The notes under the pieces are model-generated. The model worked only from the letters and a program-made list of their open reading frames with translations. It was not told the DNA's origin and did no database searches. Of a DNA stretch of 64,000 nucleotides, positions 10,732-45,289 are shown piece by piece (positions within the stretch are counted from its first letter, which is position 1; the number at the start of each line of letters is the position of its first letter). Source of the stretch: Caldicellulosiruptor changbaiensis (lineage in GTDB: Bacteria; Bacillota; Thermoanaerobacteria; Caldicellulosiruptorales; Caldicellulosiruptoraceae); the NCBI RefSeq assembly GCF_003999255.1, contig NZ_CP034791.1, positions 62,001-126,000 of the forward strand. The letters run 5' to 3'. The position numbers were made by a program, and so were the translations under genes.

Positions 10732-11052
10732 ATGACAGTCAGTAAACTTCCTCTTTCCTCAATCCCCAAAGGGTAGGCTACAAACTAATGCTACTTTTAA
10801 GCTTATAAAAGCCTTTAGAAGCGGTTTCAATCCCCAAAGGGGAGGCTACAAACCTAATGGTTTGCCAAACGGAGCAACATTACCAGTTGCATTTGAAGAG
10901 GCTTATAATGCAGGGTGTAGAGACATAAGAGTTTTAAGAATGTCTGGTTCTCCTGCAAAGGCTGTTATTGAGGGAGAAGAGAAAGTAACAACTGTTAGTA
11001 AGATTTATGAGGAAGTTTTGGGATTTGTAAAAGGTAATGCTGAAACAGTATT

Positions 11053-12360
11053 GAGACTTGTCAAGAATTTTGTGTTTCCATTTCATAGCGCATATTGTAG
11101 AGCTGTAATATATTGTAACTACATTTTTTAAGAATAGGTATTCCGTTTTTCCACTTGCCTCGACGCAAGTTTTCTCTTTGTAAGTAAATGTTTATTTCTA
11201 AAATTTCTACAGATTGGAAATAACCGCCTGAGTTTATTCTTATTTTTTCAATTATACTGTTAACACTTTCTACTGCATTGGTAGTATAGATATGCTTTCT
11301 TAAATCTTCAGGATACTTCATATGTGCAAGATAGAACTCTGCTTTTTCGCAAATACCCTTTATGAATCTGGGGTATTTTGAGGAATAATGATTACAAAGT
11401 TCTTTAAACTTTAAAACTGCTTCATCGAAGTCAGAAGAGGAAGTTCTTAATTTATCAAGTTCTTTGTTGAAAACGGAAGCGTCATCTTTTGCTATATGTT
11501 TTCTAACGTTGCGTTGAAGGTGAACAAAACATAGTTGATGGTGGGCAAGGGGATAAGCGAGTCTAACAGCATCGATTATACCTGGGAAATCATCGCTTAC
11601 GACTATTAAGACTTTTTTAAGACCTCTTGTAATTAAGTCGTCAAAGACTCTCATCCAATCGGCTTTGTTTTCTTTGCCGAAGAAAGTGTAGATACCGAAG
11701 ATATCTTTTTTGCCTTCTAAATCAATGCCAAGCACGACATAGCAAGTAGCTTGTTTAACTTTTGAGTTATCTTTAATTTCGCAATGGTAACCGTCAATGA
11801 TGAGAGCAAAAGTATTTTCAGGAAGTTCTCTTTGTTTGAAAAGTTGAAGCTCGTTTTTAAGATCGCTTTTGATTTTTTCGATTTCGTCTTCAGAATAAGG
11901 CAGATTCGTACTTTTAAGAGTTTGGACAAGAGAACTTTCTGAGTAACCGTTGGCAACTAAAGACATAAGCAGGTCAGTGTATGAGCTGTCAACCCTTTTG
12001 TAGCGGTCAGGGAGAATAGAAGGTCGAAAGTTACCAGAACGTGTACGAGGAACAGAAATTTCAAGACTTCCAACAGGTGTTGCAAGTTTTCTGTCATAAA
12101 AGCCATTGCCCTTATCGTTTTCGTTTTTAGCAAGGTAAACAGTTCTTTCTGATAACATAAAGCAATCGAGCAAGTTTTCTAAAAGCTGTTTTAGAGCTGG
12201 GCGAGTAGGATCATCCTTGGAGCAATACATATTTAGCACTTGTTCGATAGCCATATTTTTAGCGGTCTCAAAAATTTCATTTTTCTCCATAATCGTGAAC
12301 CCTCTTTGATGATTATTTCAATACTAATTATACAGTGGACACAATTTTATTTTAACTCCC
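11053..12360 (-). mobile_element. IS256-family insertion sequence with 8-bp target duplication
   Basis: The element is 1308 bp long and is bounded by the direct repeat ACAGTATT at 11045-11052 and 12361-12368, the 8-bp duplication expected for IS256. The ends GAGACTTGTCAAG and (inward from the right) GGGAGTTAAAAT followed by AAATTGTGT are imperfect inverted repeats. Its target gene becomes a continuous reading frame when it is removed, so the insertion is later than the capture of the phage DNA or was already in the phage. Confidence 0.92.
11061..12290 (-). CDS. IS256-family transposase (Mutator type, DDE)
   Basis: This 409-residue protein is full-length for the family. Seen: FYDRKLATPVGSLEISVPRTR in the N-terminal region, FALIIDGYHCEIK with the first Asp, VLIVVSDDFPGI with the second, the HQLCFVHLQRNVRKH motif conserved in IS256 transposases, and IYTTNAVESVNS with the catalytic Glu. 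ATG 12290 follows AGAGGG. It appears intact and therefore potentially active. Confidence 0.95.
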   Translation of the reverse strand: MEKNEIFETAKNMAIEQVLNMYCSKDDPTRPALKQLLENLLDCFMLSERTVYLAKNENDKGNGFYDRKLATPVGSLEISVPRTRSGNFRPSILPDRYKRVDSSYTDLLMSLVANGYSESSLVQTLKSTNLPYSEDEIEKIKSDLKNELQLFKQRELPENTFALIIDGYHCEIKDNSKVKQATCYVVLGIDLEGKKDIFGIYTFFGKENKADWMRVFDDLITRGLKKVLIVVSDDFPGIIDAVRLAYPLAHHQLCFVHLQRNVRKHIAKDDASVFNKELDKLRTSSSDFDEAVLKFKELCNHYSSKYPRFIKGICEKAEFYLAHMKYPEDLRKHIYTTNAVESVNSIIEKIRINSGGYFQSVEILEINIYLQRENLRRGKWKNGIPILKKCSYNILQLYNMRYEMETQNS

Positions 12361-14129
12361 ACAGTATTTAAGTTGAGCAACTCTAACATTATAGTTGATA
12401 GTGTTGAAGTATATGCTGATGGTACAAAGCTTGATACAACAGCGTATACAGTTGATACAACAAACAACACTGTAACACTTTTGGAGAATAAGACAAAGGG
12501 TGGAGCTTTGATTACAATTAAGTATAAATATACAACAACAGATAGCTCAGGAGCTACTGTGACACTTTCTGTCACAGAGAATGGGTATGTTGATTCAACT
12601 ACAGGACAGTTTGTTGATTTTGTAGCAACACCACAGGATACAGAGTTTACATTAACATATGTACCTGATGCAACAGCATTTACACTTTACATTGATGGTG
12701 CAACGGCACCAACAGGAACATATACAGTTGATGCTCAGAATAAGAAAGTAGTTGTAAAAGGCGGATATTTTAATCTTAATGCAAAAGCAGAGGCAAGGTA
12801 TTACTATCATGTGCAAGAAGTAACAAGACCAACAATTGAGCTTACTACAAAGTATGGTGGATATATCTATAACAGGTGCAAAGTAAAAGTAGATGTTGTT
12901 AAAAATCAAGCTGGTGAGGTTATTGGTAAGGTAGTTATTATTGACAAACCTCTTTCAAAGAAAGCATCTGCTAGTGAATTACCACTTACATATTCAACAG
13001 TAGATTATCCAACATTTAGTCTTTTAGTAAGAGCTATTAATAATGACCCAAGGAATGATTTTGTAGAGGCTGTAACAGAATATGAGAATGAACCATCTAC
13101 AAGCATTGCATTAATGCCAGAGACAAACTTTGAAGGTGGAGACGATGGACTTAACCTTTCAAAGGAAGAAATATTCAAAATACTCTCTGGTGAAAGAGAC
13201 GAAAATGGTTACCTTGTAAAAGAAGGTATTTATCATCAACTTGAAAACTATCAGGTTGATTATGTAGTTCCGCTTGGAGTATATGCTGATGATGAGCTTT
13301 TGGACAAGAATGCTAACTTTGCATACGAACTTGCGATGTGTTGTGCTAATATGTCAATAAGAGGTAAATATACAGTAGGTGTTATTGCAACAAGATCACC
13401 GCTCAAAGCAGGGCTTGCAGATATCAACGAATATGCTAATAAACTTGCTAACCTTGATACAGCTTGTTATGTAAAAGACAAAGAAGGTAATATTATCAAA
13501 GATGCAGATGGTAACCCTGTTGACATTGGTAAATTCCTAATCATTGTTGGTGGACCAGATTTAATACTCAAGAATACAAGGTTTGGAGTGTATACAGCTA
13601 ACTCACCAGCAGTGCTTGCTGGTATGATGTCTGCATTACCAGCTGGAGCATCACCAACAAACAAGAAGGTTGAAGGAGTACTTGGACTCAGATTCCAGTT
13701 CTCTAATGCTCAAAGAGACAAGATACTTGGTAATAGAATAGTTGTTTACAAGCAGAAACCAAACGGAGATATTGTAGTAGAAGATGGTGTAACGGCTGCA
13801 AGACCTACATCTGACTATACAAGAATTTCAACTATCAAGTCTGTAAAAGAAGCAGTAGACGCAATTTATGAGGTAACAGAACCATTCATAGGTCAACCTA
13901 ATACTGTTGCTAACAGAAATGCAATGTCAGTTGCTATTTCAAAGAGACTTGGTCAAATGAAAGAAGCTGGTATTATTAATGATTACAAGTTCAATATCAT
14001 ATCAACACTTTATGACCAATTACTTGGTAATGTTAAGATAGAACTTACAATAGTACCTGCATTCGAAATCAGGTCTATTACAACAATAGTATCCTTGAAA
14101 CCAACTCTGTAATGAGTCCAATTTTAATA

Positions 14130-14157
14130 GGGTACTGGGCATAAAAGCCTAGTACCC
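14130..14157 (+). terminator. Hairpin between sheath and tube genes
   Basis: GGGTACTGGGC pairs with GCCTAGTACCC around AAAA. No proper T-run follows, so it may act as an attenuator or mRNA-processing hairpin that sets higher expression of the tube gene. Confidence 0.5.
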
Positions 14158-14187
14158 AACTTTAAAACTTTAAGGAGGAGAAAGATA

Positions 14188-14961
14188 ATGGCAACAACAA
14201 AACAGGATTATTTAAGGACATATACATCATTCAGTGGTGCTGATATACTGGTTTCGTTTGGGCCAAAAGTAATAGGTGAGCTTCAATCAATTTCATGGGG
14301 TATTGAAAGAGAGAAAGCTCCTGTGTATACATTGGGTTCTCCAAATCCAAGATCTTTTTCAAGAGGTAAAAGAGGAATAGCAGGTAAAATGACATTTGCT
14401 GTATTTGACTATGATGCATTAAGGAAAGCTTTAGTAGAAGATACAAATGTATGGAATCAGATAGCTCCATATGCAATGTTTACAGCTGCGCCAAATGCTA
14501 CTCAATCAGTAAATACTGAATATGAAAAAGTTGCGCTTGAAATGTCGTTGTGGAATGCGAAGGCATCTGATGTTAACAACTCTTCAGCTGGATCTGCGTT
14601 TGGGCCAACAGGAACAAATTCCAAGACTGGTACGATAGATTTACCGGAAGGTGCATCGATAAATGTTCCACCTGGATTTGAAATTTTAAAGGCAGAGAAT
14701 ATAATCTATGCTGATATGATACCGCCGTTTGATGTAACAATCACGTTTGCAAATGAATATGGTCAAGCAGCGTTTATGAAGATTTATGACTGTGAAATTT
14801 TGAATGAAGCATCTGGCGTATCAGTTGACACAATTGTTATGGAAAGAGACTTGACGTATGTTGCAAGAAGAATTTCTCCAATCATGAAAGGTGTTTACAC
14901 ACGAGAAGCTAAAGATGATTATACTTTAATTACTCCTAAACCTGTTGTTGAAGGGATATGA
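14188..14961 (+). CDS. Phage tail tube-like structural protein
   Basis: A 257-residue protein directly after a sheath gene, the usual place of the tail tube protein. It begins MATTKQDYLRTYTSFSGADI and contains PPFDVTITFANEYGQAAFMK, a block shared with the second protein at 16967 (PPFDLFIFFANEYGATAYM). The SD AAGGAGGAG is strong. Tube function is inferred from synteny and beta-rich composition; it could also be a baseplate or virion protein of the same fold. Confidence 0.7.
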   Translation: MATTKQDYLRTYTSFSGADILVSFGPKVIGELQSISWGIEREKAPVYTLGSPNPRSFSRGKRGIAGKMTFAVFDYDALRKALVEDTNVWNQIAPYAMFTAAPNATQSVNTEYEKVALEMSLWNAKASDVNNSSAGSAFGPTGTNSKTGTIDLPEGASINVPPGFEILKAENIIYADMIPPFDVTITFANEYGQAAFMKIYDCEILNEASGVSVDTIVMERDLTYVARRISPIMKGVYTREAKDDYTLITPKPVVEGI

Positions 14962-14963
14962 CT

Positions 14964-14996
14964 AAAGCGGGTGTTAAAGCCCGCTTTTACTTTTTT
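14964..14996 (+). terminator. Rho-independent terminator after the tube gene
   Basis: AAAGCGGG pairs with CCCGCTTT, followed by a T-rich tail. Confidence 0.85.
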
Positions 14997-15007
14997 CGGA
15001 ATCTGGG

Positions 15008-15013
15008 TATAAT
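15008..15013 (+). promoter_or_regulatory. Extended -10 box before the secreted-protein gene
   Basis: TGGGTATAAT lies between the preceding terminator and the SD AGGAGGTG at 15021. The secreted protein therefore has its own promoter within the tail cassette. Confidence 0.5.
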
Positions 15014-15034
15014 TAAAGATAGGAGGTGTTGCTA

Positions 15035-16861
15035 GTGAAAAAGAAGATAAGTATTATTATCGTTTTAACCTTATTACTTGTAAATGTTGTTGTATTTGCA
15101 GTTGATACGAATTTCACTCCTATTATAAAACCGACACCTTTTGTAATGGAATATATTTGTGGTGGACTTGGAAAATGTGTAGATGGTCCATTATCAAAAT
15201 CATCATTTATTTATCCAACAGCTATATTTAACGATGAGAATAGTAATAGTATATATGTAGGAGATGCTTTTCTGATAAGGAAAATTTCGAATGGACAAGT
15301 TGAAACCATTTTTAACTTCAAGAATTCAAGTAATTTGAAGAATGTTTTATATAATTCGATTTATAATCATGCAAGATTTGGAGTTGAATATGATAGAATA
15401 GACCCAAAATATTTCCAGAAATATCTTGATAATCCATCATTAATAGAAAAGACTGTTAAATATTCGATAAACAATATGCGTATTAACAGTTTATTTTTAA
15501 CAGGTAATAAGTTATATGTGTACTTTACGATTGTTGAACCTGTATACAGTGTTTCATTTTATTATGACGTGAAACGAAGAAGTTATGCCATGGTTGATAT
15601 AGTATATGAAATTAATTTGAAAACCAAAGAAGAAAAGATGGTTTTGAGTAAAGGTGATAATCACTATTTTGATTTTGCATTTTTTGAAGAAAAACCCAGA
15701 CTTGACGATAATGGAAACATAGTGACAAAGTATGATGATAAACTATTTGTAATGAGAGATGATGTAAAGTATATCAATGGGGTACCTTATGGATACATGT
15801 ACAAACCTTCAACCTTGTTTTATCCAAAGTTTATGAAATATAACGATAGATTTCTATATATTGGAAAATTGCTTATTGATACTCAAACAAATGAAGTTTT
15901 TGATACAGATTTAAACAAAGTTGTCATGGCTAAAGATATACTTTCAAAGGCGGACTTTTATACTATAGGATATAATGACAAAGCCGGAGATTATCTAGTT
16001 AACAATTCTATTATCACATATTCAATAGGAGCAATTAAGAAGGTAATACCGAAATCGAAGTATATAAACAATAGTACGTTAAGTAACAATCTTAGTACTT
16101 TTGATATTCATGGTTGGATTTTTTCACCCAATAGATATGCAACTGGCAATATTCTTCCTGTAATAGATCAGAAGTATGGAAGGGTATATAATTTTCTTTA
16201 CGACAGTGATTATGGTGGTATAGGAATATTTAGACTTGACAAGGATAGTATGGATACATTTTTTGATTTAACAAGAGACGATAATCCTGTACTGGCAGTT
16301 GATGGTCATTTGTTTCCAGTATTTCATGAAGTAGTTTACTGGCTTAATGCACCAGAAGGAGAGATAAGGGAGGTAAAAGGTAAGAAACCTGTTGGTGGAT
16401 TAAGGGATGTGTTTGTGAACAAGGATGAAAGTATGTACATTATAGATTTTGCAGGTCAGATATTCAAGATATATCCTAAGGTTAAGTTTGGATCTCAGAA
16501 CAAGAAATTGGTAGTTAGAAGTTCGAATGTTGATTTTATTTTCAGGAAGATGGGAACGCTTGGTGAGATATCGGACTACATTCTACAGAACAACCAACCT
16601 TGTATTGAGGTAAAGGAACTTGAAAGGATGTTTGGTTTGACAATTACAACTTCAAAAGATGGGACAGTAACAATAGAAAATCCCTACGTAATGGAAAGTT
16701 ATTCTGTCAAGGCCGATATAGTGAAAGGTAGTAAGCATTATGTAAACTACAAAAAAGTTGAGAAGGCTATAAATGAAACTGTTACAAACAAGCAATACTG
16801 GATGTTTAGTTATGATGAGTACAACAATGTTTTGTCTATTGCTACAGTATATGTTGAGTAA
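15035..16861 (+). CDS. Secreted protein with C-terminal copper-amine-oxidase-N-like domain
   Basis: I start it at GTG 15035, seven bases after AGGAGGTG, giving 608 residues. A signal peptide is evident: KKK, then ISIIIVLTLLLVNVVVFA, then a likely cut before VDTNF. The bulk is beta-rich and unrecognised. The last about 110 residues (IEVKELERMFGLTITTSKDG, IVKGSKHYVNYKKVEKAI) resemble the stalk domain found in secreted Firmicute proteins. It has its own promoter and terminator and looks like cargo (a moron) in the tail cassette rather than a virion part. Confidence 0.7.
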   Translation: MKKKISIIIVLTLLLVNVVVFAVDTNFTPIIKPTPFVMEYICGGLGKCVDGPLSKSSFIYPTAIFNDENSNSIYVGDAFLIRKISNGQVETIFNFKNSSNLKNVLYNSIYNHARFGVEYDRIDPKYFQKYLDNPSLIEKTVKYSINNMRINSLFLTGNKLYVYFTIVEPVYSVSFYYDVKRRSYAMVDIVYEINLKTKEEKMVLSKGDNHYFDFAFFEEKPRLDDNGNIVTKYDDKLFVMRDDVKYINGVPYGYMYKPSTLFYPKFMKYNDRFLYIGKLLIDTQTNEVFDTDLNKVVMAKDILSKADFYTIGYNDKAGDYLVNNSIITYSIGAIKKVIPKSKYINNSTLSNNLSTFDIHGWIFSPNRYATGNILPVIDQKYGRVYNFLYDSDYGGIGIFRLDKDSMDTFFDLTRDDNPVLAVDGHLFPVFHEVVYWLNAPEGEIREVKGKKPVGGLRDVFVNKDESMYIIDFAGQIFKIYPKVKFGSQNKKLVVRSSNVDFIFRKMGTLGEISDYILQNNQPCIEVKELERMFGLTITTSKDGTVTIENPYVMESYSVKADIVKGSKHYVNYKKVEKAINETVTNKQYWMFSYDEYNNVLSIATVYVE

Positions 16862-16881
16862 ATCCAGTAAAATAGCAACGT

Positions 16882-16920
16882 GACCACTGCGGTTTTATGA
16901 CCGTAGTGGTCTTTATTTTT
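16882..16920 (+). terminator. Rho-independent terminator
   Basis: GACCACTGCGG pairs with CCGTAGTGGTC, followed by TTTATTTTTT. Confidence 0.9.
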
Positions 16921-16966
16921 TGTCATAAATCTCATGTATATACATAGTTGAGGTGGGAAGTAAACA

Positions 16967-17632
16967 ATGTTTGTGAAGGATGCATATGTAGGAACGCAGA
17001 GTAAAACAACATCATCCACCAAAAAAACAAGCTACAAGTCTAACATATATGAGGTTGAGCGAAAGTATATATCATTTTCTGGTACGGATGCTGTTGCATT
17101 TATACAGTTTCCAAATACAGAGCCATTTGTGATAGGACAAGTACAGGGTATAGAATATGCTATTTACAGAGAGAAGATACCTGTAAGAACACTGGGTAGG
17201 ATATCACCAAAGGGTGTAGCACGTGGTGGAGTTACGATTGCAGGAAGTATCTACTGGGCACTGTTGAAGGAAAACCTGGTAGAGGATATACGAAAAAGGG
17301 TTGAATATCTTGTTGATATTCCTAACTTAAGAGCTGATGAATTACCACCGTTTGACCTGTTTATTTTCTTTGCCAATGAATATGGAGCAACAGCTTATAT
17401 GGTTATTTATGGTATTGATATAGTCGATGCTCATCAGACGTTAATGATAACCAATGTACTCACTGAGAATGTATGGACATTTATGACAAGGGAGATAGAA
17501 GAAGTTAAAGCTGGAACAAAAGCAAGTGGATTTGGTAGTCCAAGTTTCAATCTCCAAAGGGGAGGCTACAAACCATCCATGACATCTTTAAAATCAAAAT
17601 TGATATCCTCAACAAACTTCACTATCACATAA
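16967..17632 (+). pseudogene. Second tail-tube-like gene, 3' truncated at a CRISPR repeat
   Basis: The product is a paralogue of the protein at 14188: FSGTDAVAFIQF, GYAIYREKIPVRTLGR-like spacing and PPFDLFIFFANEYGATAYM. The natural 3' end is missing: at 17544 the reading frame runs into the CRISPR repeat (translated NLQRGGYK) and the adjacent insert before a chance stop at 17632. The start ATG 16967 has GAGGTGGGA upstream. Confidence 0.75.
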
Positions 17633-17837
17633 CCTCCCTGAAACTATTTTCTTTTGATCCAATCTATCAATTCTTTAATACCAGATATTAACCCACCTAT
17701 CATACCAGCTATAAAAGCACCAGCAAAAATGATTAATACAGCTAATAATGGATTCAAATTAATCACCTACTTCCCTCATTATTGTATATATTCTGATTAA
17801 TATTTAAATCTACCATGTTAAGATTTAGTCTGTTACG
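17574..17837 (-). other. 264-bp insert between two CRISPR repeats
   Basis: The segment is about seven times a normal spacer and is bounded exactly by repeats. It encodes on the minus strand a complete 40-codon membrane-protein gene and the first about 18 codons of a following gene with its own SD (GGGAGGT), cut off at the repeat at 17573. The layout looks like a piece of a phage or plasmid operon. Confidence 0.8.
17644..17766 (-). CDS. Small membrane protein in the 264-bp insert (40 residues)
   Basis: GTG 17766 to TAG 17644. The hydrophobic core is LLAVLIIFAGAFIAGMIGG, with a basic amphipathic end IKELIDWIKRK. The size and charge pattern recall small phage holin-like or accessory membrane proteins, but no family can be assigned. 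The SD (GGGAAG) is weak. Confidence 0.45.
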   Translation of the reverse strand: MINLNPLLAVLIIFAGAFIAGMIGGLISGIKELIDWIKRK

Positions 17838-17999
17838 GTTTCGATCCCCAAAGGGGAGGCTACAAACTCAGGGTTTGAGTTATCAGGGTTTGAGTTGCTT
17901 CTGTTTCGATCCCCAAAGGGGAGGCTACAAACTCTTTTATCACTTCGCTTTTTTGATGAAAGCCATCAAGTTTCGATCCCCAAAGGGGAGGCTACAAAC

Positions 18000-18248
18000 A
18001 GTTTGAAAAGCTTGATTTTATTATATCGACTTTGTGCACCTCTGTCAATGTTTTTATTTTAATACATTCCCTCAAAATCAACACAAACTAAGGTGCATCA
18101 AAGAAAAGAAGCCTTTTAACCCTTTCCGTCTATCCAGCTGCTGCCAGCAAACCATTAAAACCTATGTCCCACATACATGAAACCGAATACAAATCAGCTT
18201 TTAAAAATTTTGCACCGGAGGTCGACGGAAGTGACTTTTGGTCAAAAT
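18000..18248 (-). promoter_or_regulatory. CRISPR leader of array C with promoter
   Basis: On the minus strand -35 TTGACA (18043-18048) and -10 TATAAT (18020-18025) are 17 bp apart and about 20 bp from the first repeat. Further out come the conserved block CCTTTCCGTCTATCCAGC and the distal block GGAGGTCGACGG...GACTTTTGGTCAAAAT. Homology to the leader at 30549 continues about 150 bp beyond the usual end, up to the IS at 18404. Confidence 0.9.
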
Positions 18249-18445
18249 TAATATATAGTCGTAAAATTAACGTATTATGTGCATAATCATAAAATAAGCA
18301 CACGTTGTTTTTCAGCAGGAAGAAATATATTTAAATTACACCTGTTGAAGATATTTAGATGTTATATTGTTAACAATAATAACTAATTATAACTATATTT
18401 AAGTTGTTGAATAAATAATTATACCATTAATGTTATTATATAGGA

Positions 18446-19394
18446 TTACAAATTATTCCACGTGTATTTAAAAGAAAATTTACAGTTTTCAATTTTTTGA
18501 ATATAGACCTCTATCAAATAAGTAATCATTATCCAGTCTACATGCTTCTTATATGTTCTAAAACCTCTTAACCTTACTTGTTCTAAATTGTATTCTCCTT
18601 TTAATTTCCCAAATAATCTTTCTATTTTTGTCCTTTGCTTATATAACCTTTGTCCTTCTTCACTTCTTAAAAATTCTATATTTTTTATCCTCAAAATATT
18701 TTTTACATTACTGAAATCCTTACTATTTCTCTTATTTACCGCCGCTACAAACTTTATCTCAAGTCTATCTGCCACCTCAAACCACTTCGCACAATCATAA
18801 CCTGCATCTGCTAATATCACTTCAGGTCCAAATATCTTAGCTTCATACAAAAGTCCTACTACTTTACTGTCATGGACATTTGCACGTGTCAACCGCCATA
18901 TTATTGGTATAACCTCATCTCCAATTGTTGCTATTACATGTAATTTATATCCATTGTAAAAACCTAAACTAATACATACTCCTATTCCTGCTTCTTTGTC
19001 ACCCCTCGAGCTTCTCAAAGGTGTTGAATCTATAGCACAAATTTTTGTCTGCGGATCTATTTCTCTCACTAAAATTCTTGCTATTCCTTCTATATATTCT
19101 TCTTCAATTATCTTTGCCCATTTCGAAAAATATGAATGATCGGGGGCTCTTCTCTATCCCTATAGCTTTTTTAAATTCTTCATCTTCGTTTATCTTGTAT
19201 TCTAATTTTCTGAAGCTGTTTATCTTGTTTTTGACTTTGTAAACAAAACAAGCTACTATATGGCTTAACTTAAACTTCTTTGGTCTTCCTCTTCTACTGC
19301 TTTTTATCTTTAATCCCGAGGCTTTTATTACTTTCTCAATTGTCATAAGTATCTTTAAAAATTTTTGATTTTGTGTTTTAATAAAATTAGTCAT
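18446..19394 (-). pseudogene. DDE transposase (IS4/IS5-like), frameshifted
   Basis: The N-terminal part (MTNFIKTQNQKFLK, SSRRGRPKKFKLSHIVACF) runs from ATG 19394 and leaves frame at a C-run near 19141-19145; the C-terminal frame (DHSYFSKWAKIIEEEY onward) covers the rest to 18446. Catalytic residues are present: CAIDSTPLR (Asp), ILADAGYDC (Asp) and RTKIERLFGKLK (Glu). The shift could be a mutation or a programmed frameshift as used by some ISs; the sequence alone does not decide. Confidence 0.85.
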
Positions 19395-19395
19395 T

Positions 19396-19460
19396 GCCAT
19401 CCTCCTTAGTTAGGTGTTTTTAGTCTTCTCTTACAATAATTTTACCTCAAGGAGGATGGC
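19396..19460 (-). promoter_or_regulatory. Hairpin covering the transposase ribosome binding site
   Basis: GCCATCCTCCTT (19396-19407) is a perfect inverted repeat of AAGGAGGATGGC (19449-19460). On the minus strand the downstream arm contains the SD AAGGAGG of the transposase, so a read-through transcript would hide it. The same arms exist in the remnant at 44954. Confidence 0.7.
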
Positions 19461-19645
19461 TTTTTATATATATCTATTTATTGTCTTTTCTGTTAATCAG
19501 TTTTATTCAACAAGCTAATAATATACGATAAAAAATTTGGATTTAATGAAATTTTTAAATTAGTTATAGTCTGTCATCGCACAATTAAAAAGTTATAGAA
19601 CGACAAAACCTGGTCATAAGGCTATTGTATGGGAGTTGGGAAAAT

Positions 19646-22042
19646 ATGAAAAAAAGTTCCCCATATGAAAGTCTGATGGAGAGAATTGAAAATATAATTT
19701 TACAATCTGAGGAGAATAAAAAAATATGGATTATTTTTTCAGAACAAAGTGAGGAACAATCTTTTTTGGAATTTGCAAAACTAAGCGGAATTGATGATAT
19801 ATCTGCTGGTTCTCTGATAGTATTTTATCTTGATGTTTTGTATAAATATGGAATTAATATAGATCAATTATTTGAAGAACCGCTGGATGATTATTTTGGC
19901 AGATGTAAATATACCGTTGATGATAAAGAAATTTCGAAGTTATTTTATGAACAGGATTTTTACAAGAAGCTAAAGCAGTGTTATGGACAGTGGATCAAAG
20001 ATATTATATCTAATATTAATGAGCTGATAATCAGGAGAGGGTATAACAAAGTAGAAGATGTTTCTATTTCGAAAACAGGTAATATAAAAAGGTTAAAGAA
20101 AATAGCTGATAAGGTAAACGAAATAATTTATAATAATATTTCTCTGGAGAATAAAATAAAAGAACTTGAAGAAAGGCTTGGTATTGAAGAAATAGAAAAA
20201 GATAAGATTTTTGAAAATATAACAAATCAACAAAATGAGTTGAATGAGATTACGAGAAGGTACGACCAGATCATAAAGAAAAATCAAGTTTTGAAGCAAG
20301 AACATGAAAATAGAATTAAAATTTTAGAAGAAAAACGTCAAAGTTTACTAATTGAAAAAGAGAAATTATTTAATAAAAAAACAGAACTGATATTATTGAT
20401 TACTACGAAAAGAGAAGAGAATGCTATACTCAGGAAAAAATATGAAAGCGAAAAAAGCAAACTTTATTTCAAAAAAGAGATGACAAAATTTTTCGATAAT
20501 ATTACAGGTAATATTGCTTTTTTGAAAAAAATAATTGATGGAGTGAAAACAGGGCAGGCAAAAGATTTTTCAAAGTTGTGTCGGGAAACACTTGACAGGA
20601 TTTCTGATAATGAAAATCATATAAAAGTGTGGAGTGAAGAGATAAAAAGAATAAAAGAGAGGATTAAAAAAATAGATACTGAATTAGATTTAATTAAAAA
20701 AGAATTTGCCAGTGAAAGACTTAGATTTGAAGAAAGTACAAAGGAATATAATTCTATAGCTAATATAATTGAAGAAAAAAAGAAGACAATTGAAGATAAA
20801 ATCAAAAAAGCAAGAGAAAAGGAGAATTCAATTAACAATATAATAAAAGAAATTAATGAAATTAGAAAAAGACTTTTTACAAGTCAGGAAGTTGAACGCT
20901 TGATTGAACTGAGTAATTTACTATTATGTAGCAGTGAAATTTTGGTAAAAGAAGTGTATGATAAAATCAAGATATACATTGAAGAAAATTTTAGAGACCA
21001 AATAGATGCTATAAACGTTCTAAAGTTAAAAATTATTAGTCTTTTGTATCTGGTTCTACTTCATTCTGGTAAAATTGAAAATGAGTATATATATTTTTTG
21101 GTTGAGGAAGGAATTGAAATTTCAAAATTAGATTATGATTTGTTGAAGGGTCTTCTGGGTAAATATTTTGAAATAGATTACTTTACGTTAAAGCAAAATT
21201 ATGAGGAATATGAAGATTTTAATTACGACTTATTACAACAGGAAAAAGAGGAAAATAGAAATTTTGAAAATAATGAGCCATCTGATTATATAAATGAATT
21301 AAACGATATTGGGGATTTAACAAAAGCTAATAGGTATGAAGGAGAAGAAGAGGAAAAAACTTCATATTTGGAGTTTAGGGATATAAGTGTTGAAGAAAGG
21401 AGAATAAGATTAAAAGAATCTGTCGAAGAAAGGAAAATAGAATATCTTGTCCATTTTACTAATTTGAAAAATTTAAAAAGCATAATGACAAATGGAATTA
21501 TTCCTGTAGGATATCATGATAAATACAAAATTTCTGCTTGCATTAATGATAGCAGCAGATATGATAAATGTTTAGATGCTTCAAGTTTATCAATTAGTTT
21601 CCCGAATTATAGAATGTTTTATAAAGTAAGGATAAATAATCCTTCTGAGCGATGGGTAATTATTTTGTTAGATCCAAGTATTATATGGAAAAAAGATTGT
21701 GCGTTTAACAGAACCAATGCTGCGAATAATCAAATGAGTTCAACATCTTTGCAGTATAGAAAAACTATACAGGCTTTTAATGATATGTTTGGAGATGAAA
21801 AGCTAAGAAAAGAAATTGGGCTGCCTTCTTATTTCACAACAGATCCTCAGGCAGAGGTTTTAGTTTTTGATATTATAGAACCTGAGTATATAAGGAAAAT
21901 AGTTGTGGAAAAAGAAGAAGACAGGGAATATATATTGAATACATTATCTTTGAATGATGAAATGGTAATTGTTGATGTCAAGTATTTTAGACCAAGGTTT
22001 GACTTTAATTATTGGAGAGGAGAGGATTTAATATGGCTGTAA
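19646..22042 (+). CDS. Long coiled-coil protein with C-terminal DarT-like (DUF4433) domain
   Basis: 798 residues from ATG 19646 (GGGAG upstream). About residues 1-150 form a globular region (YESLMERIENII, LEFAKLSGIDDISAGSLIVF). Residues about 150-430 are predicted coiled coil, rich in E, K and I, similar in style to SMC arms. The last 200 residues resemble DarT, which ADP-ribosylates thymidine in DNA: YLVHFTNLKNLKSIMTNGI at 601-619, FNRTNAANNQ around 691 and FTTDPQAEVLVFDI with the presumed catalytic Glu at 737. No macrodomain antitoxin (DarG) is adjacent. First gene of a four-gene operon, overlapping the next by 10 bp. Confidence 0.8.
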   Translation: MKKSSPYESLMERIENIILQSEENKKIWIIFSEQSEEQSFLEFAKLSGIDDISAGSLIVFYLDVLYKYGINIDQLFEEPLDDYFGRCKYTVDDKEISKLFYEQDFYKKLKQCYGQWIKDIISNINELIIRRGYNKVEDVSISKTGNIKRLKKIADKVNEIIYNNISLENKIKELEERLGIEEIEKDKIFENITNQQNELNEITRRYDQIIKKNQVLKQEHENRIKILEEKRQSLLIEKEKLFNKKTELILLITTKREENAILRKKYESEKSKLYFKKEMTKFFDNITGNIAFLKKIIDGVKTGQAKDFSKLCRETLDRISDNENHIKVWSEEIKRIKERIKKIDTELDLIKKEFASERLRFEESTKEYNSIANIIEEKKKTIEDKIKKAREKENSINNIIKEINEIRKRLFTSQEVERLIELSNLLLCSSEILVKEVYDKIKIYIEENFRDQIDAINVLKLKIISLLYLVLLHSGKIENEYIYFLVEEGIEISKLDYDLLKGLLGKYFEIDYFTLKQNYEEYEDFNYDLLQQEKEENRNFENNEPSDYINELNDIGDLTKANRYEGEEEEKTSYLEFRDISVEERRIRLKESVEERKIEYLVHFTNLKNLKSIMTNGIIPVGYHDKYKISACINDSSRYDKCLDASSLSISFPNYRMFYKVRINNPSERWVIILLDPSIIWKKDCAFNRTNAANNQMSSTSLQYRKTIQAFNDMFGDEKLRKEIGLPSYFTTDPQAEVLVFDIIEPEYIRKIVVEKEEDREYILNTLSLNDEMVIVDVKYFRPRFDFNYWRGEDLIWL

Positions 22043-22725
22043 GACCTGTATTTTTGTCAACTGACCCTGAGGAAGAAGAGTTGGTGAAAGTTGTAGATGT
22101 TGAATTTGAGTGGTATGCAGGTTTTTCCTTATCACAGAAGCAAAAATGTATTGAATCCCTTCATAAAAATTTTATAAAAGAGTTTGGGTCTAAGAATATT
22201 CTGGAGATCTCAACAAAATCAAATAATAAACTTGGTGTTGAACTAAGCGCATTTAATCTTAAAATTTACTATGAGCCACTTAAGAAATTAGTTCCTGTTG
22301 AAAATGTGTTTCAGGCAAGTAAAGTTTTTGAAGGAAATGTTCAATATTTAGACCTGTTAGAAAAAACACCAATCGAAGCAAAAAAGGACAGCAGATTAAG
22401 AAATAGCGGCAAATTAATTTACTTTAAATATAATGAAACCAAATGGGAATTAGAACCGAAAACATTATTTTATGATTGGCTTTATATAAATGCTTTGTAT
22501 AATAATAAGGAATTGGCTGAAAAGATTATTAGCTATGAAGCATTTACTGATATAGAGTTCAATCCTGAAAAGTCATACAACTGTCAGGCAAGATCAGCAG
22601 CTCTGTACGTTTCGTTTTATAAAAGAAAATTATTTCCTGATATACTGGATGTAGAATTTTATAAAAGTTATGTTAATAAAAATTCTAAAAGGTCTTCTAA
22701 TCTACAACAGATTTCTTTTGAGTAG
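22033..22725 (+). CDS. Conserved protein found with DarT-like genes (DUF6977-like)
   Basis: 230 residues from ATG 22033, chosen for the GGAGAGGAGAGG SD. Recognisable blocks are RPVFLSTDPEEEELVKVVDVEFEW, GFSLSQKQKCIESLH, SAFNLKIYY, FYDWLYINALY and FNPEKSYNCQARS. I recall this pattern from a family of small proteins near DUF4433 genes, but the name is from memory. No macrodomain signature (such as N-D-D or G-V-G-G-I) is visible, so it is not an ordinary DarG. A partner or substrate-recognition role is inferred from coupling to the DarT-like gene. Confidence 0.65.
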   Translation: MAVRPVFLSTDPEEEELVKVVDVEFEWYAGFSLSQKQKCIESLHKNFIKEFGSKNILEISTKSNNKLGVELSAFNLKIYYEPLKKLVPVENVFQASKVFEGNVQYLDLLEKTPIEAKKDSRLRNSGKLIYFKYNETKWELEPKTLFYDWLYINALYNNKELAEKIISYEAFTDIEFNPEKSYNCQARSAALYVSFYKRKLFPDILDVEFYKSYVNKNSKRSSNLQQISFE

Positions 22726-22760
22726 TTTGCGGTGAAAATTTAGCAGAGGATGATTTTCAG

Positions 22761-25310
22761 ATGCTCCTTGTAAGAGACCAGATGATGAAAAAGATGAAGA
22801 AAGAGAAGAATAAGAAGAAAATACTCAAGATTCTATCTTTTGCCAGGGAAATTCAGCAGATAGGGAAAGAAGAGTTGAGAAATAGTTTGTACATAAGGAA
22901 AATAAAAGGATGTAGAGAACCTATCTTTAAGTTTCGTTTGAATACCAATGAAAGAGTTTTGTTTATGTTTGGATCGGATATTGAGGATTTAAGAGAAGAA
23001 TTCAAAAATGCTATAGTTTTGATAGATTATTGCAATCATGACAGTCAAATTATAAAAGCCAGGAGAATTGAAAGCATCAATGCTAATAAGATAGAAGAAG
23101 ATTTAAAAATTGAGATGTGGACTTCGGAAGATGAGTTTGATAATGAAATTAATGCTTTATACAAAAACTATAAATTCTGTGTCAATCAAGAGATGAATAT
23201 AGTAATTTCAGACCAGTTTATGAAGTATCTTATAGAAGATGATAGTGAGGAATATCTTTATTATCTAAATGATGAACAGTATGAATGTCTTAAAAACTCG
23301 ACATTGGCAACAATTGTAAAGGGAAGTGCTGGTTCAGGCAAGACAACAATTTTGCTACACAAATTAGGAATGCTGGCAGGAGACAAATTAAAGGTAGGGT
23401 ATTTCACATACACATCCTATCTAAGAGATAGAGCTGAAAATATTTATAGTAAATACTGGAAGTATGATAAAAGCAAGATTTATTTTTACTCTTTAATTGA
23501 CTTTTTACTCAGGACCACAGGTATAAGCATGGATAGGGTTGTTACTTTGAACAGGTTCAAGCAGTGGTACATGAACACTGTTGGTCGATTTTATAAGTTC
23601 CACTATATTGATGTATGGACAGAAATTAAGGGGATAATAAAAGGTTGTATGGGTATAAATTGGATTAGAGACAGGGCAATCCCAGTTGAATTTTTAGATG
23701 ATCGGATAGCAGAATTTTTTGAAAAAAAGGGATACATAAAAAGGCATTCTGACAGGTGGATATTACATACACAAAAAAGTTTAAATGAGATCAAAGAAGA
23801 ACTGTACAGAGAAGGGTACAAAGGTGAAAGGGAGATTTTGGTAATAGAAAACTTGAAAAAATATTTTTATCGACTTCATAATTTAATTGATACAGCAAAG
23901 TCAGGACTTGATGAAGAATATTATCTTGAATTGCCAGAAGATTATTCTATTTTTTCATATGAAGACCGAAAAGAGATATATCAGATCTACTTGAAATACA
24001 ATGAATGGTTAAAGGAATCTAACCTGTTTGATGAAGATGATTTAGCTCTCATAGTTATAGAAAAAATAAAGAGAAATGAAATTGAAAAATTCGATTTTTT
24101 GCTTGTCGATGAAATTCAAGATTTGAGCGAAGTTGAAATATATGCATTAATTAATCTTGTAAAGAACAAGGAGAATATAATTGCAACAGGAGATGTACAT
24201 CAAATTATAAATCCTACGTTCTTTAGTTTTGGGAGAGTTGCTAATTATTTTTCTTGCATAGATGTCAACTTCAAAGAATTTTGTCTTAAAAAGAATTACA
24301 GAAGTCAAGAGCAGATAGTTGCACTTGCCAACAAAATGTGTGAGTTTAGGAAAAAATATATTGGTGCGCTTTCTGATGACATACTTGAAGTCAGTATAAG
24401 AAGCGGGGAAAAACCGTGGATTGTTCCGCTTGATAAAAACAATTTAGAAAAGGCTGTTGAATTTGTCTCTACAACTAAAAGTTCAGTTTTGGTTGTTGAA
24501 GATGAAGATACAAAGAATAAGATAGCATCGAAATACAATATTTTAGAAAAAACCTTTACTGTGCATGAGGCAAAGGGATTGGAATTCAATTATGTTATTT
24601 GTTTAAATTTGATATCAAAACATGAAGATGTATGGATGGATATACTTTCTGGAGTAGCCAAAAGAATTTCAAAATACAGATACTTTTTTAATTTGTTTTA
24701 TGTTGCTATTACAAGATGTAAAAGATGGCTAATAATTATGGAAGAAAATCCTTATATTGATATTATTGAGGCTTTAAAGGGATATATATGGTATTCTGAT
24801 GTTCTTGAAATTGATGAAAAAATGTTGGAAATCAGTTCGATAGAAGAAAGGTATCAGTATGCAAGAATGTTAGAACAAAAAGAAATGCTGAAAGAAGCTA
24901 TTTCAGCTTATGAAAAACTCGGGAGCGAAAAGGATGTTCTGAGATGTCGAATAAAGCTACAGGCAGAAGCAACAGGATATGAAAAAGCTGGAGATAGACT
25001 TTTGGAAATTGAAGAGTTTGAAGAGGCAGCAAAATATTATTTTAAGGCTCTATGCTATGAAAAGATGATAAAGGCAAAAATTCTGGCTGGAAATTATATC
25101 AACAGAGAAGACATTTTGAAAGAAGATATGAATGAATATAATATAACATGGCCAGGACTTTTAAGCAAATTTGACGACAGAGAGATTGTTCAATTGTATC
25201 ATAAATATTTCAGTGGGAAATGCGAAAAAATTAAAAACCTTTTCAATGACATAGATTTTTACATAAACTATTCAGCAGAAATGCTAAAAATAATTGATGG
25301 GGGAAAATAA
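22761..25310 (+). CDS. UvrD/Rep-like superfamily I helicase with extra N- and C-terminal regions
   Basis: 849 residues. Helicase motifs: YECLKNSTLATIVKGSAGSGKTT (motif I near 187-195), FLLVDEIQDL (motif II, Asp 450), KKNYRSQEQIVALANKM (motif IV), TVHEAKGLEFNYVICLNL (motif V) and FYVAITRCKRWLIIM (motif VI). Residues about 40-110 (LYIRKIKGCREPIFKFRL, RVLFMFG, IVLIDYCNHD) look like a RelE/ParE-type fold. The last 200 residues form TPR-like helices (AISAYEKLGSEKDVLRC, FEEAAKYYFKALCYE). The start ATG 22761 follows AGAGGATG. It is followed by the last operon gene after one base. Confidence 0.88.
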   Translation: MLLVRDQMMKKMKKEKNKKKILKILSFAREIQQIGKEELRNSLYIRKIKGCREPIFKFRLNTNERVLFMFGSDIEDLREEFKNAIVLIDYCNHDSQIIKARRIESINANKIEEDLKIEMWTSEDEFDNEINALYKNYKFCVNQEMNIVISDQFMKYLIEDDSEEYLYYLNDEQYECLKNSTLATIVKGSAGSGKTTILLHKLGMLAGDKLKVGYFTYTSYLRDRAENIYSKYWKYDKSKIYFYSLIDFLLRTTGISMDRVVTLNRFKQWYMNTVGRFYKFHYIDVWTEIKGIIKGCMGINWIRDRAIPVEFLDDRIAEFFEKKGYIKRHSDRWILHTQKSLNEIKEELYREGYKGEREILVIENLKKYFYRLHNLIDTAKSGLDEEYYLELPEDYSIFSYEDRKEIYQIYLKYNEWLKESNLFDEDDLALIVIEKIKRNEIEKFDFLLVDEIQDLSEVEIYALINLVKNKENIIATGDVHQIINPTFFSFGRVANYFSCIDVNFKEFCLKKNYRSQEQIVALANKMCEFRKKYIGALSDDILEVSIRSGEKPWIVPLDKNNLEKAVEFVSTTKSSVLVVEDEDTKNKIASKYNILEKTFTVHEAKGLEFNYVICLNLISKHEDVWMDILSGVAKRISKYRYFFNLFYVAITRCKRWLIIMEENPYIDIIEALKGYIWYSDVLEIDEKMLEISSIEERYQYARMLEQKEMLKEAISAYEKLGSEKDVLRCRIKLQAEATGYEKAGDRLLEIEEFEEAAKYYFKALCYEKMIKAKILAGNYINREDILKEDMNEYNITWPGLLSKFDDREIVQLYHKYFSGKCEKIKNLFNDIDFYINYSAEMLKIIDGGK

Positions 25311-44953: not shown

Positions 44954-45289
44954 TTGTTGAATAAAGCAAGTTAACAAAAAACAAAAATGTATATATATAC
45001 AAAGCCATCCTCCTTAAGAAAAAAGTATAGTACTAAGGCAAAAGAACACAACAAGGAGGATGGCAATAATTAATTTTATTGAAAAACAAAAACAAAAGTT
45101 TTTAAAAGTTCCTATGATAATTGAGAGAGTAATAAAAGCCTTAGGATAAAAGATAAGAATCAGTAGAAGATGAAGACCAAAAAAATTTAAGCCAAGGTAC
45201 AAAGTAGCTTATTATGATTACAAAGCAAAGAACAAAATAAAAATTATTTCAGATTTGCTAAATATAAGTAAATCACGATATTTATAATT
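44954..45289 (+). mobile_element. Degenerate remnant of the IS found at 18404-19513
   Basis: The terminal repeat TTGTTGAATAAA, the GCCATCCTCCTT / AAGGAGGATGG hairpin and the transposase start (NFIEKQKQKFLKV, later RPKKFKP with stops between) are all recognisable on the plus strand. The element is cut off before the catalytic domain. Confidence 0.8.

Follow-up and report, generated by a model that had tools for sequence, protein, structure and literature searches.

Recombination between CRISPR spacers and phages is an experimental finding of Varble 2019 and Watson 2018, as both are cited in PMC8616872, and the process proposed below has its experimental precedent in that work as so cited. In staphylococci (Varble et al. 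2019, via PMC8616872 and PMC10434264) phage and array recombine through the homology that a spacer shares with its phage target, as they would also have done at the locus described here. The outcome there, as the citing review tells it, is CRISPR loci moved on phage particles, whereas the apparent outcome here is phage slices with two spacer ends in the chromosomal arrays of thermophilic Firmicutes, in natural genomes. Prophages in the CRISPR loci of Streptococcus pyogenes (Varble et al. 2021, going by the title in PMC10434264) likewise place phage DNA between repeats; in that case prophages integrate, whereas here the fragments are cut within genes and no integrase is seen. Thermophile arrays were likewise found to be rearranged by recombination, with normal spacer-repeat junctions kept, in Sulfolobus (Gudbergsdottir et al. 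2011, PMC3025118); the products there are deletions between repeats or IS insertions, whereas here it is apparently invader DNA that lies in the array. A natural footprint of this kind, with slices of phage genes between repeats, was not found in the open-licence literature searched.

The locus examined here lies in a 64,000-nucleotide stretch (the window) that corresponds to positions 62001-126000 of the complete 2.9-Mb genome of Caldicellulosiruptor changbaiensis, and whose cas genes are of type III-A (Csm1, Csm3, Csm4, Csm5) and type I-B (Cas3, Cas7, Cas8b). One of its arrays holds two intervals far longer than a spacer. Such oversized intervals share with the ordinary type I-B / III-A spacers of the genus the same repeats and slots and, in the two testable cases, the same leader-side PAM; they differ in length (264 to ~7,400 nt, against 32-44 nt) and in that they contain genes. 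The 264-nt interval of this array is probably a slice of phage DNA that was swapped into the array through homologous recombination.

The array and its two oversized intervals

The array extends from a terminal repeat at 10756 to a leader at 18000-18260 and is transcribed from the minus strand. From trailer to leader its units are a 38-nt spacer, an interval of 6,690 nt, an interval of 264 nt, and then ordinary spacers of 35 and 37 nt. On the plus strand, a degenerate terminal repeat (10756-10785) is followed by the oldest surviving normal spacer (38 nt, 10786-10823) and by the repeat on the trailer side of the giant interval (10824-10853), with the giant interval itself at 10854-17543. Two complete repeats of 30 nt, one with a private mutation, CTCC (17544-17573, GTTTCAATCTCCAAAGGGGAGGCTACAAAC), the other carrying the GTTTCGAT variant (17838-17867, GTTTCGATCCCCAAAGGGGAGGCTACAAAC), enclose positions 17574-17837, which are 264 nt exactly, as the first-pass annotation of this DNA had read them. 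Beyond these lie the 35-nt spacer (17868-17902), newer than the 264-nt slot and containing an internal tandem repeat (TCAGGGTTTGAGTT twice), a repeat (17903-17932), the 37-nt spacer that is the newest of the array (17933-17969), and the leader-proximal repeat (17970-17999), both of these repeats again with GTTTCGAT. The leader, on the minus strand, is of family A, which is conserved at array ends in 11 of 12 genomes. The same annotation had noticed that the three leader-side repeats (17838, 17903 and 17970) share the GTTTCGAT change, and its relative dating is sound: the two newest spacers therefore post-date the slot that now holds the 264 nt. This dating applies to the slot rather than to the exchange of its content.

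The flanks of the 264-nt interval are those of a unit in a type I-B/III-A array, with complete consensus repeats in the same orientation and a leader present; the interval itself falls outside the spacer length range of the system (32-44 nt, n=1,058 spacers). Read on the minus strand (17574-17837), it is a slice of a polycistronic operon cut within genes at both ends. The translated frames comprise the last 24 codons and stop of an upstream gene cut at the leader-side repeat (17763-17837, RNRLNLNMVDLNINQNIYNNEGSR*), a complete 40-aa protein with a single transmembrane segment and a basic tail (17644-17766, MINLNPLLAVLIIFAGAFIAGMIGGLISGIKELIDWIKRK), whose hydropathy is 2.49 across 19 aa, and the first ~18 codons of a next gene cut at the trailer-side repeat (17574-17628). 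The stop of the upstream gene overlaps the start of the 40-aa protein gene (GTGA), and the third gene, preceded by a ribosome site (GGGAGG), starts with GTG at 17628 and stays open to the repeat. A small membrane-protein gene and the cut-off start of the next gene had been recognized at the outset; the tail of the upstream gene had been overlooked.

The anatomy resembles a slice through a dense operon of phage type, cut in genes at both ends, and a phage origin of the 264 nt would follow from this anatomy and from analogy with the other intervals described below. The sequence is single-copy in its own genome, has no counterpart in 60 relative genomes, where the other matches are all short and weak, and gave chance-level short matches alone when compared with phages, so that the proposed search of phages for a relative returned none. 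The 40-aa protein belongs to no family in Pfam or PHROGs and has no relative by tblastn on phages or by a degenerate DNA pattern on IMG/VR; the single IMG/VR match to that pattern (contig L151) was discarded, as it sits within an unrelated protein. The 264 nt is not a whole prophage, and no integrase was present in any interval examined.

The neighbouring giant interval (10854-17543, plus strand) carries tail genes of a jumbo myovirus together with an IS256-family element. It encodes a tail sheath (cut at codon ~72) and two tail tubes, the second of them truncated close to its end, with a 611-aa secreted protein between the tubes; gene order and homology fit jumbo myoviruses, including Moorella phage MTATph1, with which the tail block is syntenic, Bacillus phage KLEB27-3 and IMG/VR contigs. 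A search with an alignment as query gave eleven jumbo-phage contigs at 30-35% identity to the sheath; close relatives of the sheath were found neither in GTDB genomes nor in IMG/VR. Phage homology begins at sheath residue 1, which is 2 nt from one repeat, and at the other repeat continues to residue 191 of 192 of the tube, and the ends of the interval are therefore phage and not remnants of an unrelated spacer. The IS256-family element (11053-12360, minus strand) lies within the sheath gene and is a later insertion with an 8-bp target duplication (ACAGTATT). The 611-aa protein (15026-16861) has a signal-like N-terminus and lies between the two tube genes of the cassette, where MTATph1 has in the equivalent position a gene for S-adenosylmethionine decarboxylase; the position looks as if it were a cargo slot in these jumbo phages.

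Oversized intervals across the genus

A census was made of the CRISPR regions of 12 Caldicellulosiruptor-like genomes (one genome per species, about 1.0 Mb, 1,188 repeats). It contained 1,058 spacers, each of 32-44 nt, no interval of 45-263 nt between well-conserved repeats, and oversized intervals of 264, 400, 495, 651, 3,526, 6,690 and 7,408 nt. Gaps of ~100 nt in genomes G001 and G009 were left out, their repeats being degenerate with 3-4 mismatches. Sixty-two long-looking gaps were discarded, each beginning with one of two leader families, and candidates in G006 (1,509 nt), G008 (859 nt), G011 (6,010 nt) and G010 (429-492 nt) were excluded as sequence between arrays or at array edges. Besides the two intervals of C. 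changbaiensis, an interval of 400 nt was found in G002, intervals of 651 and 7,408 nt in G005, one of 3,526 nt in G007, and one of 495 nt common to G005 and G007, in which it is 98% identical; in G001 a phage slice with siphovirus capsid genes lies flush with the oldest repeat, at the array end. Oversized intervals with cut phage genes between repeats thus recur in G001, G002, G005 and G007, which upholds the earlier view of a repeatable process rather than an accident. Phage slices in several related hot-spring bacteria suggest that phage DNA has been swapped into arrays repeatedly, by recombination through matching spacers. Prophages carrying a portal protein of family PF04860 were not found in the genus, a search that would miss those with other portal families.

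The 495-nt interval holds an acidic tail that, judged by eye, is like that of an SSB, then an ORF of 78 aa, and lastly the N-terminus of a RecA/UvsX protein, which the repeat cuts off (PF00154 E 1e-3, phrog_97 E 7e-3, read across a frameshift). In the 651-nt interval, all 115 residues of the leader-side ORF match the C-terminal part of a phage minor capsid protein (Geobacillus phage PK2.1, E 3e-6; also TP-84). The 82-aa ORF of the 400-nt interval has 87-89% protein identity to IMG/VR siphovirus contigs that encode terminase, SPP1-type portal, minor capsid and capsid proteins, and at the nucleotide level the interval is 80-85% identical to five such contigs and colinear with them to the last leader-side base; on the trailer side a global alignment reaches the repeat, with the last few bases less similar. 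At least the 400-nt interval, which like the 651-nt interval and the G001 slice comes from siphovirus capsid genes, is thus a continuous stretch of a phage genome that takes the place of a spacer. Large secreted-protein genes, and no obvious phage genes, make up the 3,526- and 7,408-nt intervals. These encode proteins of 800-990 aa for which no Pfam family was found; the same secreted-protein gene is cut by a repeat at differing points in G005 and G007, and in G004 a gene of this kind lies flush with a repeat remnant and one of the interval junctions is seen as well.

The 400-nt interval of G002 and the 651-nt interval of G005 lie in orthologous arrays, whose trailer flanks are 94% identical over 1.1 kb. 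Their first 100 nt are common to both (96%) and include a 2-nt deletion that none of eight phages has. Beyond this shared end the two intervals hold different small genes of two phage types, the G002 remainder resembling IMG/VR contigs L114, L118 and L122 and the G005 remainder resembling the G001 slice (80% over about 406 nt). Either a single ancestral insertion later had its content replaced from a second phage, or recombination at this one spot took place with two phages. A shared end joined to different phage types therefore requires homologous recombination between phage and array, and it is to the apparent exchange in this 400/651-nt pair that sequence evidence for recombination is limited.

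For inference of the PAM, the 1,058 spacers were compared with phage contigs, which yielded 18 protospacers at up to 7 mismatches. The adjacent triplets were TCA in five, TTA in three, and TTT, TCG and TTC in one each, with the others scattered; these triplets agree with clostridial type I-B PAMs, which end in TCA, TTG or TCT (PMC4860712). Had the leader-side end of a slice been the PAM-proximal end of a spacer, a PAM would be expected in the phage immediately beyond it. Every phage aligned to the 400-nt slice has TTA exactly there, and so does the G001 slice when its flank is taken from the homologous sequence in G005, against a background for TYA of about 0.025-0.04 in each of these two testable cases. 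On the trailer side, TYA stands at spacer length (35-38 nt) in four of six intervals (expected 1.2, P 0.015) or, with the G005 copy of the 495-nt interval, in three of six (P 0.09); length-weighted permutation gives P 0.06-0.10, and the four phage-type intervals alone give P 0.13. This trailer-side signal is weak, and would be suggestive of former spacers at that end.

For the 264-nt interval, a former trailer-side spacer of 36 nt is predicted at 17574-17609 and, on the pattern of the 400-nt interval and the G001 slice, a former leader-side spacer of ~36 nt at 17802-17837, both on the minus strand. At 36 nt from its trailer side the interval has TTG, 5' of the predicted spacer, as against the TYA favoured in the genus; in C. 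pasteurianum, TTG does function as a PAM of type I-B (PMC4860712). Among the 1,058 genus spacers, from one genome per species, none matched any interval end as an ordinary spacer, and the expectation that sister arrays might preserve the end segments was not borne out, as no genus spacer from this one-genome-per-species sample matched either of the two oversized intervals of the window (264 nt and 6.7 kb) better than reversed sequences used as control did. Comparison of whole arrays with phages and plasmids for protospacers gave nothing useful.

Origin of the phage slices

The mechanism favoured for these intervals is an exchange between array and phage. An ancestral array would have held two spacers from one phage, and incoming DNA of the same phage, probably in the form of fragments left by CRISPR interference, would have paired with both of the ~36-bp spacer/protospacer matches. 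A double crossover, for which RecA would be the likely agent, would then have exchanged the array segment between the two spacers for the phage segment between the two protospacers, so that spacer A, phage DNA and spacer B would follow one another between two repeats. The flanking repeats would remain intact because each crossover falls within a spacer, and further exchanges would be eased by the greater length of phage homology that the array had gained. With only ~36 bp of homology, crossing over at both ends is an inefficient process. Also counting against recombination are the lack of any match to an interval end among the 1,058 genus spacers, the weak trailer-side PAM signal with TTG in place of TYA in the 264-nt interval, the 264 nt itself, with no phage relative identified, and the genes of the 3,526- and 7,408-nt intervals, which are not obviously phage. 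Integration by a single crossover was rejected, as an interval does not have the same sequence at its two ends.

The main rival to recombination is capture of a long fragment by the adaptation machinery. In that case Cas1-Cas2(-Cas4) would have taken an uncut long phage fragment and joined both its ends at the leader-proximal repeat, casposase-like, with the repeat duplicated, an origin that is unlikely for the 264 nt. Duplication of the repeat would account for the exact boundaries without any prior spacers, and a PAM abutting the leader-side end, as observed, is what such capture predicts. However, capture gives no reason for the absence of lengths of 45-263 nt among more than 1,000 units, would have to handle phage DNA of up to ~5.4 kb, and leaves unexplained both the 100-nt end shared by G002 and G005 with its swapped phage type and the TYA at spacer length inside the trailer-side ends, a weak signal. 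Published acquisition errors, moreover, shift the length of a spacer, for which slippage against a protein ruler has been proposed (PMC5059440). It is likewise unlikely that the adaptation machinery of these thermophiles acts as a casposase would and inserts phage DNA, uncut and hundreds to thousands of bases long, at the leader-proximal repeat, by which some arrays would store whole segments of viral genes as giant spacers. The chance is slim that a transposon, or the repair of a break, brought host or plasmid DNA into a spacer with no relation to it and so gave rise to the 264 nt. IS elements do enter these arrays, as the IS256 element at 11053-12360 did, and the 264 nt has no database relative; against such an insertion are the lack of terminal inverted repeats (8/30 identities), of an end duplication and of a second copy in the genome, the open reading frames that extend as far as the repeat at both ends, and the sister intervals elsewhere that are clearly phage right up to the repeat. 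The first-pass annotation had named ordinary host sequence carried by a transposable element as the finding that would overturn its reading, and the ends and copy number of the 264 nt point away from it.

Entry of a whole phage is slimmer again as an explanation. Either a phage that carried a mini-array or a repeat of CRISPR type, or a prophage for which the repeat served as att site, would have integrated whole into the array, and deletions would then have left the slices. Prophages in the CRISPR loci of S. pyogenes are known (Varble 2021, as cited in PMC10434264), and integration mediated by viral repeats has already been proposed (PMC8616872). The slices, however, are colinear without internal deletion joints (the 400 nt against four phages, the tail block against MTATph1), begin and end within structural genes, an unlikely site for a repeat or att, and contain no integrase that could be seen, and the aligned phages have no repeat-like sequence at either end of the 400-nt slice. 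An artefact of assembly or annotation is hardly to be entertained: repetitive arrays are prone to misassembly, but the same class of interval is present in independent genomes, and the 495-nt one in two species at high identity.

If recombination between spacers and phages is indeed the origin, natural CRISPR arrays would be written by Cas1-Cas2 and also overwritten by recombination with the phages that they target, and the footprint, a slice of phage DNA bounded exactly by repeats and with a PAM immediately beyond its leader-side end, would be readable and searchable in any genome collection. Each exchange would erase the spacers between its two crossover points and part the older spacers from the leader; here the sole surviving older spacer lies beyond the 6.7-kb insert. 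Long phage homology in the chromosome would invite more exchange, and arrays would preserve pieces of infecting phages, among them a jumbo myovirus that had no close relative in the GTDB genomes or IMG/VR.

Other features of the arrays and the window

Two distinct leader families serve arrays of the same repeat in the genus, and in the window they are represented at 18000-18260 and at 380-600. Right behind the first of these leaders is a DDE transposase split in two frames (18446-19400), of which a partial inverted copy lies at 44976-45241. It is followed by a likely defence cassette (19625-25310) with a DarT-type protein, whose ADP-ribosyltransferase domain (PF14487) comes after a long N-terminal part, a NADAR antitoxin (PF22397, E 5e-86) and a UvrD-like helicase. 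At 914-2299, placed between an array and the Csm operon, is a gene for an ATPase_2/DUF234 protein that matches the PADLOC candidate defence family PDC-S27 (E 9e-62).

In an array of G011, blocks of six consecutive spacers are duplicated (L048, 12359-12729 and 13625-13995), which is evidence of repeat-mediated rearrangement, and smaller duplications of spacer blocks similar to it are present in several genomes. Additionally, a spacer of G000 matches the siphovirus contig L136 (IMGVR_UViG_649633025_000001) perfectly over 39 nt at 17796-17834, with a TCA PAM, and is a candidate record of active immunity.
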